The position numbers and the translations under genes are program-made. Of a stretch of 23,310 nucleotides of DNA, positions 2,942 through 15,573 are shown piece after piece (within the stretch, counting starts at the first letter, position 1; each line of letters opens with the position of its first letter). This stretch comes from a virus: positions 1 to 23,310 of the IMG/VR virus record IMGVR_UViG_3300014325_000044; one strand, given 5' to 3'. The notes beneath the pieces were generated by a model. That model was given only the letters and a program-made list of their open reading frames with translations. It had not been told where the DNA came from and made no database searches.

Positions 2942-4136
2942 GTTGTACCTTAGATGATGCTGTTAATATCTCTTGTTTTAACTCGTCTGAAAGCGGAAGG
3001 AATTTGAGGTAGTGCTGACTTGCTTCATGCAGCGGCTTTTTGCTGTAAACTGTTGGAGTTGCTTTGTCATTATCAACCCAAATAGCAGCTCTATTTACTG
3101 TAGAGCCTATTACTTTTTTATCAACGTTTTTCTGCTTAAATGCAGTCTTTTTAGGCGGAATAGCAGGATCTTCTCGAGAAGCCAGACGTTGCACATTCTC
3201 AAATCCAGATGGGATTGATATCTGATCTTCTCTTTCTTGTTCGTATGGCTCTTTATTCAAGGGCTTTATGACATGCTCATTGCTTCTATGCTCAGTCATT
3301 CCCCTTGTAGGTCCGGGATTTGCTGGAGAAACTCCTAATGCAAAAGCGAGATCGCCTGCTAATTTGGTGTTTGGAGTCAAATTTCTATCCAGATCGTATT
3401 CTAAAGCAACTTTGAGTATGTAAGCGAATGCGTTATCAATCGTTTCTTTACGTTGAGAATATTGCTTGTTGGCATGATCGATTGCTTGGTCAGTGCAGGC
3501 GCTGAGCTGGCACTGCTGAAATAGATTGAGAGGCGCATTGATCCTCTGCACCGCGAGAGGTATGCCCTTGTTCATAGATACTCCTCTTACAATCTGTAAG
3601 TTAGTATATTTATAAATATATCTTAATATCTCTAATCGTCCGGTGATGACGACTGAGAGGCTCTTTGCAGAGGATACCAAAGCTGCTCTTAAAATGAATC
3701 CCGATATAGATTTGAACATGTGGCGGAGCCTGAAAAGCATGTCCGGGTTGTTGGTGAAGAAAGAAGAGATCCTATACACACAAGATGCTCCAAGCCTAAA
3801 GCGCTTACTGATAATGCCAAGATTGGCCAGCTTCGTAGTAGACTTTTGGACTGTGTCCTCATGCATGCCATAGCGCTTAGCTATAGTTTCATGAGTAGGA
3901 TAAATAACATCGTACCTAAAATGATAATGAAAGAGCTCATCAAAGACCTTGCGGTCGGCAGGAGCGAGTGCTGCAAATGAACCTTCTGGATCGAGTCTGA
4001 ATTGCTCATCAAGAGGGTAAGAAGTTACATCTTGACAGAAATTATTTTCTGAACTAGATTGGATATCAGATGAAATATTTGAAATCTTTGCAGATTGTAA
4101 CAGTCTTTCAATGATTGAAATTGTCTCGTGATTCAT
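2922..4136 (-). CDS. Winged-helix replication protein (initiator or helicase loader candidate)
   Basis: 404 aa. A winged-helix DNA-binding region lies at about residues 57-123: ALAPADRKVFDEL, then PTHETIAKRYGMHEDTVQKS as helix-turn-helix, then LGIISKRFR as the wing. The middle (about 125-265) is helical with hydrophobic patches. The C-terminal third is charged, Pro/Lys-rich and probably flexible, as in phage replication organisers that recruit a helicase. The gene overlaps the DnaB-type helicase by 20 bases, which supports a replication role. The start at 4136 has a very strong GGAGGAGGAG site upstream and an ATGA overlap with a 17-codon leader ORF. The function is inferred from domain plus context. 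Confidence 0.65.
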   Translation of the reverse strand: MNHETISIIERLLQSAKISNISSDIQSSSENNFCQDVTSYPLDEQFRLDPEGSFAALAPADRKVFDELFHYHFRYDVIYPTHETIAKRYGMHEDTVQKSTTKLANLGIISKRFRLGASCVYRISSFFTNNPDMLFRLRHMFKSISGFILRAALVSSAKSLSVVITGRLEILRYIYKYTNLQIVRGVSMNKGIPLAVQRINAPLNLFQQCQLSACTDQAIDHANKQYSQRKETIDNAFAYILKVALEYDLDRNLTPNTKLAGDLAFALGVSPANPGPTRGMTEHRSNEHVIKPLNKEPYEQEREDQISIPSGFENVQRLASREDPAIPPKKTAFKQKNVDKKVIGSTVNRAAIWVDNDKATPTVYSKKPLHEASQHYLKFLPLSDELKQEILTASSKVQHEESRE

Positions 4137-4817: not shown

Positions 4818-4844
4818 AGACCCAGATTAATCTGGGTCTTTTTT
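4818..4844 (+). terminator. Perfect 22-base palindrome with plus-strand T-tract
   Basis: Arms AGACCCAGA and TCTGGGTCT around TTAA (4818-4839), then T6 on the plus strand reaching into the groES stop codon. On the minus strand it reads stop, A-tract, hairpin, with no T-tract after it. It works best as a plus-direction terminator. Confidence 0.65.
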
Positions 4845-5133
4845 ATTCTATAACACCCAATACTGCATTTTCAGCAATCACTGAATAAGTATCATCCAAC
4901 AATGTGTCAGCATGGCGCATGAAGTATATCTTGTCGCCTACTGCAACATCAACGGGGATCAGAGCACCATTTTGGTAACTTCCAGGACCCACTGCGATCA
5001 CTGTGCCAATAGGAGGCATCTCCCCAGCCACAGGATCCACATTCGTGATAAGACCCGACTCAGTCTTCAGCTCTGTTAAAACTTCTCTCTCAATCAAAAT
5101 TCTGTTGCCTAATGGCCTAAAATTCTTGAACAT
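4843..5133 (-). CDS. groES: GroES-type co-chaperonin (Cpn10)
   Basis: 96 aa, full length for the family. It would cap the host GroEL and adapt the folding chamber, probably for capsid protein, as T4 gp31 does. Core matches: FRPLGNRILIER (5-16), GTVIAVGPG (43-51), PVDVAVGDKIYF (60-71), and VIAENAVLGVIE at the end. The mobile loop spans about 23-41. Its GroEL-contact tripeptide is Leu-Ile-Thr (28-30) in place of the usual Ile-Val-Leu, and it is followed by a Pro/Glu-rich stretch. The start overlaps the preceding DUF551-like gene by 17 bases, and AAGGAAGAG precedes the ATG. Identification is firm; its partner is inferred. Confidence 0.92.
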   Translation of the reverse strand: MFKNFRPLGNRILIEREVLTELKTESGLITNVDPVAGEMPPIGTVIAVGPGSYQNGALIPVDVAVGDKIYFMRHADTLLDDTYSVIAENAVLGVIE

Positions 5134-10880: not shown

Positions 10881-11477
10881 CTATCCTTTTAATTTAGCAA
10901 CAAATTCCCTGTTTACCGGTTCATCTTTCAAAGCATGTAGCATGCCTTGTAATGACAATCGCTCTTCAGCAGAAATATCTGCAGGAGCTACCGCTGCTCG
11001 ATTGTATACTGATTTAAATAATGATTCTTTCTGATGAGTATTCACATTCTTATCATCAAAATCACCAGTATTAACTTCTTTTTTTATTTTGGACCATTGC
11101 ATAATCTCACGCACTCGGTCTTTTGCTACTTGTTCACCAGAAGCTATATAAAAAAGAAGCTCATCTTTATCAACAAGCAATCTATCCTTGTCGAACCCGA
11201 TTGCTGATTTGAGCTTTTCTTCTACTTCCTGAAGATCAATCTTTTTGCGTCTCAGGCTGAATGTAAGAGTAACGAGCTCATCAAAGTGTACAGTCTGTTC
11301 ACGTACTGCCTGCCAATATTTGGATGCATTGGTAGGGAACTTAAAATCATTGAGCACCGCAAAGCGCGCCTCCGTATCGGTGCGAAATATCTGGCGCTTA
11401 TGCCATGCATCATGAAGTTCGTCTTTAATTGCTTCAAGTTCAGGATTGAGGGCGATAATGTGCTTGAGTTGATTCAT
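10881..11477 (-). CDS. Helical phage protein of unknown function
   Basis: 198 aa, almost entirely helical and charged. Notable blocks are ELHDAWHKRQIFRTDTEARFAVL (about 20-42), FPTNASKYWQAVREQTVHF (47-65), AKDRVREIMQWSKIKKEV and DVNTHQKESL-type sequence near 145. Similar layouts occur in virion-region proteins of diverse tailed phages. Its place between the Kelch fibre and the membrane protein makes a tail-assembly or fibre-chaperone role possible, but nothing in the sequence proves it. The start overlaps the Kelch gene's stop by 1 base (TAATG). Confidence 0.65.
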   Translation of the reverse strand: MNQLKHIIALNPELEAIKDELHDAWHKRQIFRTDTEARFAVLNDFKFPTNASKYWQAVREQTVHFDELVTLTFSLRRKKIDLQEVEEKLKSAIGFDKDRLLVDKDELLFYIASGEQVAKDRVREIMQWSKIKKEVNTGDFDDKNVNTHQKESLFKSVYNRAAVAPADISAEERLSLQGMLHALKDEPVNREFVAKLKG

Positions 11478-12667
11478 TAAGTCACCGTAAATGTAACAAC
11501 AACGTTGCCGCCGCTATGATAAAGTTCTGTTGTTGCTGTAGGAGTAGTTCCCGCTCCTGTCCAGCCACCAAAAGCCAATACCGAAGCTGCTGTAATGGAA
11601 CCAGCCCCTGGCCCACCACGCGCAGTGTTCATGTTAGACTTTGTAGTCCATGAATTACCACTTACGCTATAAAGCTGAGTTGTTTTAATATCAGTACCAC
11701 CACCGCCGGTAGTTCCTGCAATGCAAAGCTGAAGATCGCTTGTTAATTTAGCGCCTCCACATTCATATGTTGCGGTATTTAAATTTGTTTTGTTGGTCCA
11801 ACTATTGCCGCTCAATTGATAGATTTCGGTTTTATTACTATCGGCAGCATTAAAACCACCAAATGACAATGCATTATCAGTATCAATATCAGCTCCAGAA
11901 AGACCATAGCGAGCATTGTTCATAGCCGTTTTAGCCGTCCAACTATTACCTGCAAGACTATATAGTTCTGTTGTTGCCACTGGAACAGTAGTATTGCCAC
12001 CAAATGATAAGGCTGCATCTGTAGTGAGTCCTGCGCCTCCTAACAATCTACGAGCAGTATTCAAAGCAGTTTTCGTTGTCCAACTATTTCCAGCAAGACT
12101 ATATAGTTCTGTGACCGCAGACGATGTCACAATCAAGCCTCCAAATGACAATACAGCATCAGATGTTAAACCTGCGCCGGCCAATTGAGAACGTGCAGTA
12201 TTAAGTGCAGTTTTAGTAGTCCAAGTATTTGCACCAACATCATAAAGTTCTGTAACAGCGGAAACTGCTCCCGTGTTACCACCAAATGACAATACATTAT
12301 TAGTGGTGAGTCCAGCTCCACCAAGTTCAGCCCTAGCTGTATTCATAGATTGCTTAGTAATCCACGTTTCTGGAACGTTTCCATATCCCCTAAAGGCAGT
12401 ATTCGTACTATTGAACCAATCTTGTCCAACAATCGGAGAGGCCGGGTTAGAAGCAACTGAATCCATGCGGCTATTATAGGTAGCAAAGGCAGGATCTGCT
12501 GATGTAGTTGCTGTAAAAAATTGACCTGTAGTTCCGGCAGCAGTCACTGCTACCGCACCAGTACCATTACCTACTAAAACACCATGGGCGGTCAGAGTTG
12601 TATCCCCTGTGCCGCCATTTGCCACTTCAATAGGAATATTTGAATTTATTGGGTTTATAGTAGCCAT
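11477..12667 (-). CDS. Kelch-repeat tail fibre (six-bladed propeller candidate)
   Basis: 396 aa. Residues 1-98 are a GGTG-type fibre module almost the same as the adjacent 106-aa protein. Then six repeats of about 46-50 residues follow, each with N-[ST]-W-T-x-K, a small x-MNTAR helix-like turn, an L-S-F-G-G strand and a T-E-L-Y strand. This is the Kelch beta-propeller pattern. The protein ends VVVTFTVT, matching the KTFTVT end of the 106-aa protein. It looks like a propeller placed inside a fibre-tip module, probably for binding a protein or glycan on the host. Kelch domains are unusual in tail fibres. Confidence 0.8.
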   Translation of the reverse strand: MATINPINSNIPIEVANGGTGDTTLTAHGVLVGNGTGAVAVTAAGTTGQFFTATTSADPAFATYNSRMDSVASNPASPIVGQDWFNSTNTAFRGYGNVPETWITKQSMNTARAELGGAGLTTNNVLSFGGNTGAVSAVTELYDVGANTWTTKTALNTARSQLAGAGLTSDAVLSFGGLIVTSSAVTELYSLAGNSWTTKTALNTARRLLGGAGLTTDAALSFGGNTTVPVATTELYSLAGNSWTAKTAMNNARYGLSGADIDTDNALSFGGFNAADSNKTEIYQLSGNSWTNKTNLNTATYECGGAKLTSDLQLCIAGTTGGGGTDIKTTQLYSVSGNSWTTKSNMNTARGGPGAGSITAASVLAFGGWTGAGTTPTATTELYHSGGNVVVTFTVT

Positions 12668-12988: not shown

Positions 12989-13825
12989 TTATACCACCGT
13001 CCAGTTACCCCATCCGGAAGTTACCCGCCAGACAGTATTTGCAGTTTTACATACTAATTTCAACGTATCGCCAACGGCTGAGCTAGTTAATGTTCCTGTT
13101 GCACCAGATGTTGTATTAGTGTTCCCAATCAATATTTGCTGCCCAGATGCTTGCGTGAATTGTGTGCCTGTTGCTGTGTTCTCATTAGCCACTTCTATGA
13201 TGTCGCCAACCGCAGAAGTAGTTGGCAATGCAAGGGCAAGAGTTCCTGCCTTATTGCAGAAATAGCCATTGTTAACCACAGCTGTTTGATTGGCAGATAT
13301 TACAGACCACGTTACATCATTTGGAACAACTTTAAAGCTAGGAACGGCAGAAGCGCCATTTGAGGTGAGCACGAAACCAGAAGTCGATAGTCCTGTTGAA
13401 GCAACTTGCAGAGCACCCGTAGCTGTTGTTCCCGCAACCACAGGAGCATAAGCAGTCGTCATCGTTGCTACACCAGTTCCGCCATTGGCAACAATCAAAG
13501 TTCCACCAAGGGTCTCAGTTGATGTAGCACCAGCAAAAGTAAGGCCAGTTGTTCCGCCAGTGAAGGTGAAACTATTGCCCGTCAGGCCACCACCAGAATC
13601 ACCAGTGATGGTTATTGAACTTGCAGCAGGAGCTTGAAATGTAGGTAACGAAGCGCCACCAGTACTTGTTAAAATGAACCCTGATGTTCCCAAACCCGTT
13701 GAGGCAACTTGTAATGCACCCGTTGCTGTAGTACCTGCGCAGACAGGAGCATAGGCCGTGGTCATGGTAGTTACACCAGTTCCACCTTCTGAAACGATTA
13801 TGGGCCGAATCTGTTTATAAGCCAT
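12989..13825 (-). CDS. GGTG-repeat tail fibre with internal duplication
   Basis: 278 aa. Residues about 10-63 and 110-163 are a near-perfect duplication: GGTGV.TMTTAYAPV.AGTTA, then LQVASTGL.TSGF and a SxPSF-like end. Between them lies a Ser/Thr/Gly strand region. The C-terminal 110 residues (NDVTWSVISANQTAVVNNGYF to SGWGNWTVV) form a beta domain like those on many phage fibre tips, with a repeated VGDxI/VGDTL pattern. The ATG overlaps the upstream gene's stop (TGATG). Confidence 0.8.
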   Translation of the reverse strand: MAYKQIRPIIVSEGGTGVTTMTTAYAPVCAGTTATGALQVASTGLGTSGFILTSTGGASLPTFQAPAASSITITGDSGGGLTGNSFTFTGGTTGLTFAGATSTETLGGTLIVANGGTGVATMTTAYAPVVAGTTATGALQVASTGLSTSGFVLTSNGASAVPSFKVVPNDVTWSVISANQTAVVNNGYFCNKAGTLALALPTTSAVGDIIEVANENTATGTQFTQASGQQILIGNTNTTSGATGTLTSSAVGDTLKLVCKTANTVWRVTSGWGNWTVV

Positions 13826-15210
13826 CAGAACACCTCGTAGGAAACTGAATTACCCATTAATTCTATCGATGAGTAGTTGGTGTTCATCACGTAGGTAGTA
13901 GCACCATCAATATTGACCGCACCACCAACTGTCGTCACGGTTATATTATTTGTAGCTGCGAGGCCAACTTTGTCTTTAACAATATATGTTCTACCAGTTG
14001 TGGCAGCATTAGGAAATCTGAGCGTTACTGCACCGCCTGTCACATCAACTGCAATATATTCATCCGTAGTGAGAACTGTGTAAGGAGAAGCTGCAAAATT
14101 AACTGCTGTGTAAGTCAGACTTGTTGTTCCAGTTGCTGCAATCGTAATTGTATTCGCGCCTGGCGTAACACTTATTCCTGTGCCAGCAGTAATCGTTGCC
14201 GTCCCGAGCTCATCCGCAGTGCCACCAGTACCCATGGTCACCACCTTCGCAGTGGATCCCACGTTCACGCCATCGATGCCACCAATGAAGCATTTATTCT
14301 GCTGCATATCGCCAGAACCAGAAATACCTATGCGAATAGTGTTATTATCGCCAATAACACCAACGTTTCCGATGATGATATTGTAGCTCTCATTTGTGGT
14401 ATATGCTGAACCGGCAATGAGACTAATCGGGCCACCACCAGATTCATCAACGCCACCAGCAATAAAGTTGCCTACACCAGAAACAAGATTAAGAGCAGTC
14501 GAATCGCCCAGAATACAATTACCATCACCTGTGGTTAATGCCGAAGCACAGTTAATTCCAAGGAGTGTATTATTGTTACCCGTGCTGATTAAAATACCAG
14601 CCATTGCACCGACAGCCGTATTATTTGAACCAGTAGTTGATGCTCTTAGGGCTGCAAATCCGAACGCTGTGTTTGATCCAGTGTTAACGCCACCTGTTTG
14701 ATTTTGAAGTGCTCCCCAACCAACTCCAGTACTCTCAAACTGATCAGTAAAAGTAAGTTTTAAAGTATTGCCTGATCCATAAAAGTTAACAGTACTCTGA
14801 TCAACATAATTAGCACTTGTTAAGTTATCTACAACTACATTGAGAACATTAGCAACTGGCGTTGCACTGCCACTATTAGCATCATAGGTTGTAGCAAAAC
14901 CAGAACCATCAATGGTCACCGTATTGCCAGACCCACTGGTTGTTATTCCACCCGATCCAAAAATATTGAGAATATTACCCGAAGGAACCGCAGATCCACT
15001 ATCCTCATCAAATTGAGTTGCTACTAAGCCAGAGACCTCAAACGTTAATGTATGCGTCGCAGGATTGCCAGTAACGGTGATAAAAGTACCGCCCAGCGTG
15101 TTTATATTACCAAATGCATCTGGTGGAACCGGGCCCCCACTATTACCTGTAAGAGTAACTATGAATGGACCACCACCACTTGAGTTAAAAAAGCGTCCTA
15201 TTTGTGAAAT
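13825..15210 (-). CDS. YadA-like head-repeat tail fibre, apparent ATT start
   Basis: 461 aa if started at the ATT at 15210. The open frame runs back to the TAA at 15220-15222 region, and no in-frame ATG exists before it; the next GTG is 97 codons in (14919). AAGGA lies 6 bases before ATT, the normal spacing, and the N-terminal SQIGRFF, GGGPF and TLTGNSGGPVPPDAFGNIN blocks are typical of fibre proteins, so the upstream part is real coding sequence. Residues about 158-300 carry YadA-like beta-roll repeats (NTAFGFAALRASTTGSNNTAVG, NTIRIG). The C-terminal 150 residues form a strand-rich tip. Either ATT is used, as in infC, or one base is wrong. Confidence 0.8.
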   Translation of the reverse strand: MSQIGRFFNSSGGGPFIVTLTGNSGGPVPPDAFGNINTLGGTFITVTGNPATHTLTFEVSGLVATQFDEDSGSAVPSGNILNIFGSGGITTSGSGNTVTIDGSGFATTYDANSGSATPVANVLNVVVDNLTSANYVDQSTVNFYGSGNTLKLTFTDQFESTGVGWGALQNQTGGVNTGSNTAFGFAALRASTTGSNNTAVGAMAGILISTGNNNTLLGINCASALTTGDGNCILGDSTALNLVSGVGNFIAGGVDESGGGPISLIAGSAYTTNESYNIIIGNVGVIGDNNTIRIGISGSGDMQQNKCFIGGIDGVNVGSTAKVVTMGTGGTADELGTATITAGTGISVTPGANTITIAATGTTSLTYTAVNFAASPYTVLTTDEYIAVDVTGGAVTLRFPNAATTGRTYIVKDKVGLAATNNITVTTVGGAVNIDGATTYVMNTNYSSIELMGNSVSYEVF

Positions 15211-15219
15211 GGTCGTTCC

Positions 15220-15573
15220 TTATTGGCCCGTTTCCGTACCGTAAAAGACTGTAACATAGACAGCACCAAGAGTCGGAGCTCCTGCAAGATCACGGACATA
15301 AATTCGTGTACCTTCAGCGATATACCAACCCTGTTCACGAGTTTTATTTGCAGTGATATCGATGATCATATAGCCCTGAGTAGGAAGTATCCAATGATCA
15401 TTGATACCATCAAGTGAAAAAAGAACTGCAACATCGGTTAAATTTTGTATGTATAAAAGTCTAATTGGATGTTCAAAGGCAGTCCCAACTCCCATATAGC
15501 TTCCGCTTACAGAGCCGAATGCCAATGAACGTAGCGGTTCTGCCAGTAACCTAATTGCTAATGAATAATTCAT
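15220..15573 (-). CDS. Small virion protein, beta-rich
   Basis: 117 aa. Begins MNYSLAIRLLAEPLRSLAFG; the core RLLYIQNLTDVAVLFSLDG, then ILPTQGYMIIDIT and GTRIYVRDL, ending VYVTVFYG, is a small beta-sandwich pattern seen in many phage virion genes. It shares its overall plan (strand with Asn/Asp turn, a Pro-x-x strand, a VYV strand) with the next gene at 15586-15921, so the two may be related. AGGAGATGCC precedes the ATG. Likely a decoration or tail-adapter protein; exact location unknown. Confidence 0.7.
   Translation of the reverse strand: MNYSLAIRLLAEPLRSLAFGSVSGSYMGVGTAFEHPIRLLYIQNLTDVAVLFSLDGINDHWILPTQGYMIIDITANKTREQGWYIAEGTRIYVRDLAGAPTLGAVYVTVFYGTETGQ

Follow-up and report, generated by a model that had tools for sequence, protein, structure and literature searches.

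A probable AUU initiation codon in a fibre-like structural gene of a virus and its recurrence in the gene family

Results

The record examined is a virus sequence of 23,310 bases, referred to here as the window. On its minus strand, a fibre-like structural gene occupies positions 13825 to 15210, comprising 461 codons counted from an ATT at 15208 to 15210 and ending in a stop codon at 13827-13825. It is preceded by a gene for a 117-amino-acid protein (15220 to 15573, minus strand) and followed by a gene for a 278-amino-acid protein (12989 to 13825, minus strand), the ATG of which overlaps the fibre stop codon as TGATG. The TAA stop codon of the upstream gene (15220 to 15222, minus strand) is in frame with the fibre gene and is overlapped by a Shine-Dalgarno sequence, AAGGA (15217 to 15221, minus strand), located six bases 5' of the ATT. 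The junction reads ...GGC CAA TAA GGA ACG ACC ATT TCA CAA ATA GGA, in which ACGACC forms the spacer between AAGGA and ATT. The original prediction of a 461-codon frame opening with ATT at 15210, with AAGGA at six-base spacing, was confirmed. The AAGGA duplex (-6.2 kcal/mol) is within the range for the ATG genes of the window, and RNA folding near the ATT is ordinary (z = -0.49). There is no ATG, GTG or TTG in the fibre frame before an internal GTG at 14917 to 14919 (minus strand), which had been placed about 97 residues in and lies exactly 97 codons from the ATT, as codon 98; the first ATG of the frame is further downstream. Genes neighbouring the fibre gene begin at ordinary ATG codons preceded by Shine-Dalgarno sequences, and a usable ATG was present in each of the other well-defined window genes that were checked.

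In relatives, too, the same fibre gene follows a member of the 117-amino-acid protein family. In the IMG/VR members of that family the next gene mostly opens with M-S-Q at the equivalent codon, and the synteny and junction seen in the window are common to dozens of loci. The original prediction had suggested alignment to related phages as a check on the start. The window ATT aligns without gaps to the start codon (the M of M-S-Q) of 13 relatives, an ATG or a GTG in the same synteny, and S2 and Q3 are invariant in this alignment; at locus L001, for example, the junction is TAAGGAGAAAAA-ATG-TCACAAATA, compared with TAAGGAACGACC-ATT-TCACAAATA in the window. Over the stretch from the ATT to GTG 14919, protein identity to L109, L231, L091 and L008 is 54-58%. 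Differences from relatives fall mostly at the third codon position (34/28/63 at positions 1/2/3 versus L231, for instance), and this third-position-biased divergence extends right up to the ATT. Because the 97 preceding residues are conserved and the differences lie mostly at codon position 3, GTG 14919 is judged to be internal to the gene and the residues ahead of it to be real coding sequence. Given the ungapped alignment, and the recurrence of ATT described below, the placement of the start at ATT 15210-15208 is well supported.

Translation could nonetheless begin inside the gene, either at GTG 14919, which is a canonical start, or at a near-cognate codon such as the ATA found at codon 4 in both the window and L136, a relative described below. 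However, initiation at GTG 14919, which has a weaker Shine-Dalgarno sequence, would lose 97 conserved residues, and the ATA at codon 4 is some 13-15 bases from the Shine-Dalgarno sequence. Homologues starting inside, at the position of 14919, had been named as evidence that would overturn the ATT start; we looked for them among the relatives and found none. We regard an internal start as scarcely credible.

A frameshift joining the fibre frame to the preceding gene had likewise been raised. None is present; the two frames share phase, a point that the original prediction lacks, and a fusion would need readthrough of the TAA. Such readthrough would join the 117-amino-acid protein to the fibre in a frame of 583 codons, which is continuous across the TAA in the window, and in many relatives, too, the two genes share phase here. 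Phase varies within the family, however: in L013, L016, L027, L030 and others the fibre gene does not share phase with the upstream gene, nor does it in the other two ATT-bearing members, L136 and L248, and readthrough is therefore not a family feature. Furthermore, the codons between the TAA and the ATT spell a Shine-Dalgarno sequence, and relatives carry ATG or GTG at the position of the window ATT. In-frame readthrough is accordingly very improbable.

Searching every fetched locus with a profile identified 93 distinct family members, the window included, with a start before Ser-Gln. Their start codons are ATG in 81, GTG in 8, TTG in 1 and ATT in 3; ATA, ATC, CTG, ACG, AAG and AGG starts were absent from all 93. 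One GTA and one ACA were left out of the tally, since each lies inside a gene that has an in-frame canonical start farther upstream. The ATT members are the window, L136 and L248, so that the substitution proposed for the window recurs in L136 and probably in L248. L136, which is on the same contig as L173, was found by homology search and not by searching for ATT. Its start, ATT AGC CAG ATA, overlaps the TAG of the upstream gene, 75 codons separate it from the next canonical start, and we consider this ATT start firm. L248 was found via a chance internal match and offers a second candidate, a GTG at codon 9 (8 codons in) with AGGA before it, which makes the case ambiguous, and its ATT start is probable. 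A homology vote over 1,869 open reading frames gave good support to a non-canonical start in two cases only, the window (47 of 47 aligned homologues) and L136 (28 of 29). A direct scan of the viral collection for ATT, ATC or ATA before Ser-Gln returned one real case only, the L136 contig. Non-ATG starts are more frequent in the fibre family (12/93) than in the upstream neighbour family (6/153; Fisher p 0.012), a modest difference in which the window itself is counted. At positions 1990-2010 of L136, the overlap takes the form AATTAG, in which the T of the ATT also makes the TAG of the upstream gene; a G in its place would let the upstream frame run on.

We considered whether the window ATT is a single-base sequencing or assembly error for a true ATG. 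The ATG of L001 is one base away from the ATT in otherwise very similar surroundings (ATGTCACAAATA versus ATTTCACAAATA), the window was chosen because of its ATT, and errors or mutations do exist in related contigs, such as a frameshift in L042. An exact-pattern search around the ATT for a second contig of the same virus found none, in a collection that may omit near copies. On the other hand, the same ATT occurs, the window aside, in 2 of 92 family members (1 of 92 without L248), for which the chance, with errors at 1e-4 per base, is ~5e-6 for two of 92 and ~3e-3 for one. Errors would be expected to damage this start codon in other ways as well, and no such damaged codon occurs among the family members tallied. 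Since ATT recurs in one gene family, a sequencing error is unlikely; for this contig, it is possible. The L042 frameshift, at 3649-3800, breaks a gene of the 117-amino-acid family and could stem from mutation or from misassembly.

A true mutation could instead have silenced the gene, leaving ATT as a dead start, with the fibre no longer made and neighbouring fibre genes substituting for it. One mutational step is enough to abolish a start codon, and the window contains several other repeat-rich structural genes. Yet all 461 codons of the frame remain open, with the conserved N terminus and the Shine-Dalgarno sequence both retained, and random start loss would mostly yield ATA, ACG, AAG and similar codons, whereas only ATT occurs. 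We consider a dead start improbable.

The ATT codons of the window and L136 could be inherited from a shared ATT ancestor or could have converged; the trees and protein comparisons are consistent with both. An 89-row tree, built without the start residue, pairs the two at 98/83 support; in a 30-row tree the support is 47/82. The loci fetched included no close relative of the window. Their upstream proteins are just 35% identical, while other relatives, which have ATG, reach 64% identity to the upstream protein of the window. A strict single ATT ancestor for the pair was dropped, given the fall in support from 98/83 to 47/82 on changing rows.

Discussion

To our knowledge, standard gene finders accept ATG, GTG and TTG only, and genes starting at AUU are therefore shortened or missed. 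In this respect the fibre gene resembles sigR of Streptomyces, whose non-canonical GTC start was missed by gene callers; the two differ in codon and role, and for sigR repression by IF3 has been demonstrated experimentally.

The original prediction gave infC as the known example of an AUU start, but it is not alone. In E. coli, AUU starts are known for infC and pcnB (PMC9410913, citing Binns and Masters 2002 for pcnB), and in S. aureus cvfC1 also starts at AUU (PMC13009471). The fibre gene has an AUU at the position of its homologues' AUG, a normally spaced Shine-Dalgarno sequence and no usable canonical start nearby, and on this comparison it appears to be a further AUU-initiated gene alongside infC and pcnB. 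As in infC, the AUU would be read with a Shine-Dalgarno sequence and is expected to be weak and IF3 sensitive. Unlike the fibre gene, a phage structural gene with no known tie to IF3, infC encodes IF3 and uses its AUU for autoregulation. With pcnB and cvfC1, the fibre gene shares an AUU start outside infC. Those genes are cellular and have experimental evidence behind them (low output for pcnB and a conserved extended Shine-Dalgarno sequence for cvfC1), whereas the fibre gene is supported by sequence comparison. Our literature search, of partial coverage, turned up no AUU start in a phage structural gene. In a survey of 61,358 ancestral AUG starts, 1 switched to AUU, compared with 363 to GUG and 113 to UUG (PMC5622118), an AUU baseline that is lowered by annotation bias; against it, two or three ATT codons among 93 members of one family stand out.

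The position of the start, the Shine-Dalgarno sequence, the close juxtaposition of the upstream gene and the recurrence of ATT in the gene family are direct observations, and from them we infer that the fibre gene probably initiates with fMet at AUU. Ribosomes ending the 117-amino-acid gene, or arriving afresh, would bind the AAGGA that overlaps the UAA, and initiator fMet-tRNA would be set on the AUU that follows the six-base spacer. The usual initiator tRNA takes part in re-initiation together with IF2 and IF3, and excess IF3 affects re-initiation less when a Shine-Dalgarno sequence is present (PMC2268962). The 461-residue fibre-like protein would then be made at a lower rate than from AUG, as expected because IF3 represses, without abolishing, starts other than AUG, GUG and UUG (PMC5472188). 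Such low output may be tolerated or favoured, and the modestly higher non-ATG use of the family (12/93, the window included, versus 6/153) speaks for its being useful. It is plausible that ATT controls the dose of one fibre and that initiation here is sensitive to IF3. More tentatively, ATT may be a weak start, either maintained or repeatedly evolved, in one phage structural gene family, setting the amount of one fibre relative to its neighbours and tying that amount to IF3 or to coupling with the gene upstream; we hold this broader proposal to be possible but doubtful. If the start is used, it would offer a natural and testable example of a virion protein whose amount is set by the strength of its start codon.

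Identification of the product as a tail fibre is likely, on the basis of beta-rich repeats and weak PHROG matches, of the protein itself to a virion structural family and of a paralogue to a tail spike family. Searches of Pfam and PDB with the fibre-like protein gave no match, and structure prediction gave only poor models (mean pLDDT 49.0 and 50.5). In tblastn, phage records yielded nothing, whether the query was the complete gene, an N-terminal segment or the upstream gene family, and neither did host genomes searched with the upstream protein family. A terminase search of host genomes detected distant relatives only, in mixed bacterial assemblies. Among terminase relatives, L086 and L089 are in a Simkaniaceae (Chlamydiota) metagenome-assembled genome at 35-36% identity. 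In L019, from a virus with a related terminase, an in-frame TGA at 2464-2470 interrupts the fibre-like frame, with repeat-like coding on both sides.

Two other genes of the window may be mentioned. A GroES-like co-chaperonin is virus encoded at 4843-5133 on the minus strand (Pfam Cpn10, E 1e-14). In the structural region, a 396-amino-acid protein (11477-12667, minus strand) combines Kelch repeats with a MATINPI-type N terminus that is common to the neighbouring 106-amino-acid gene.
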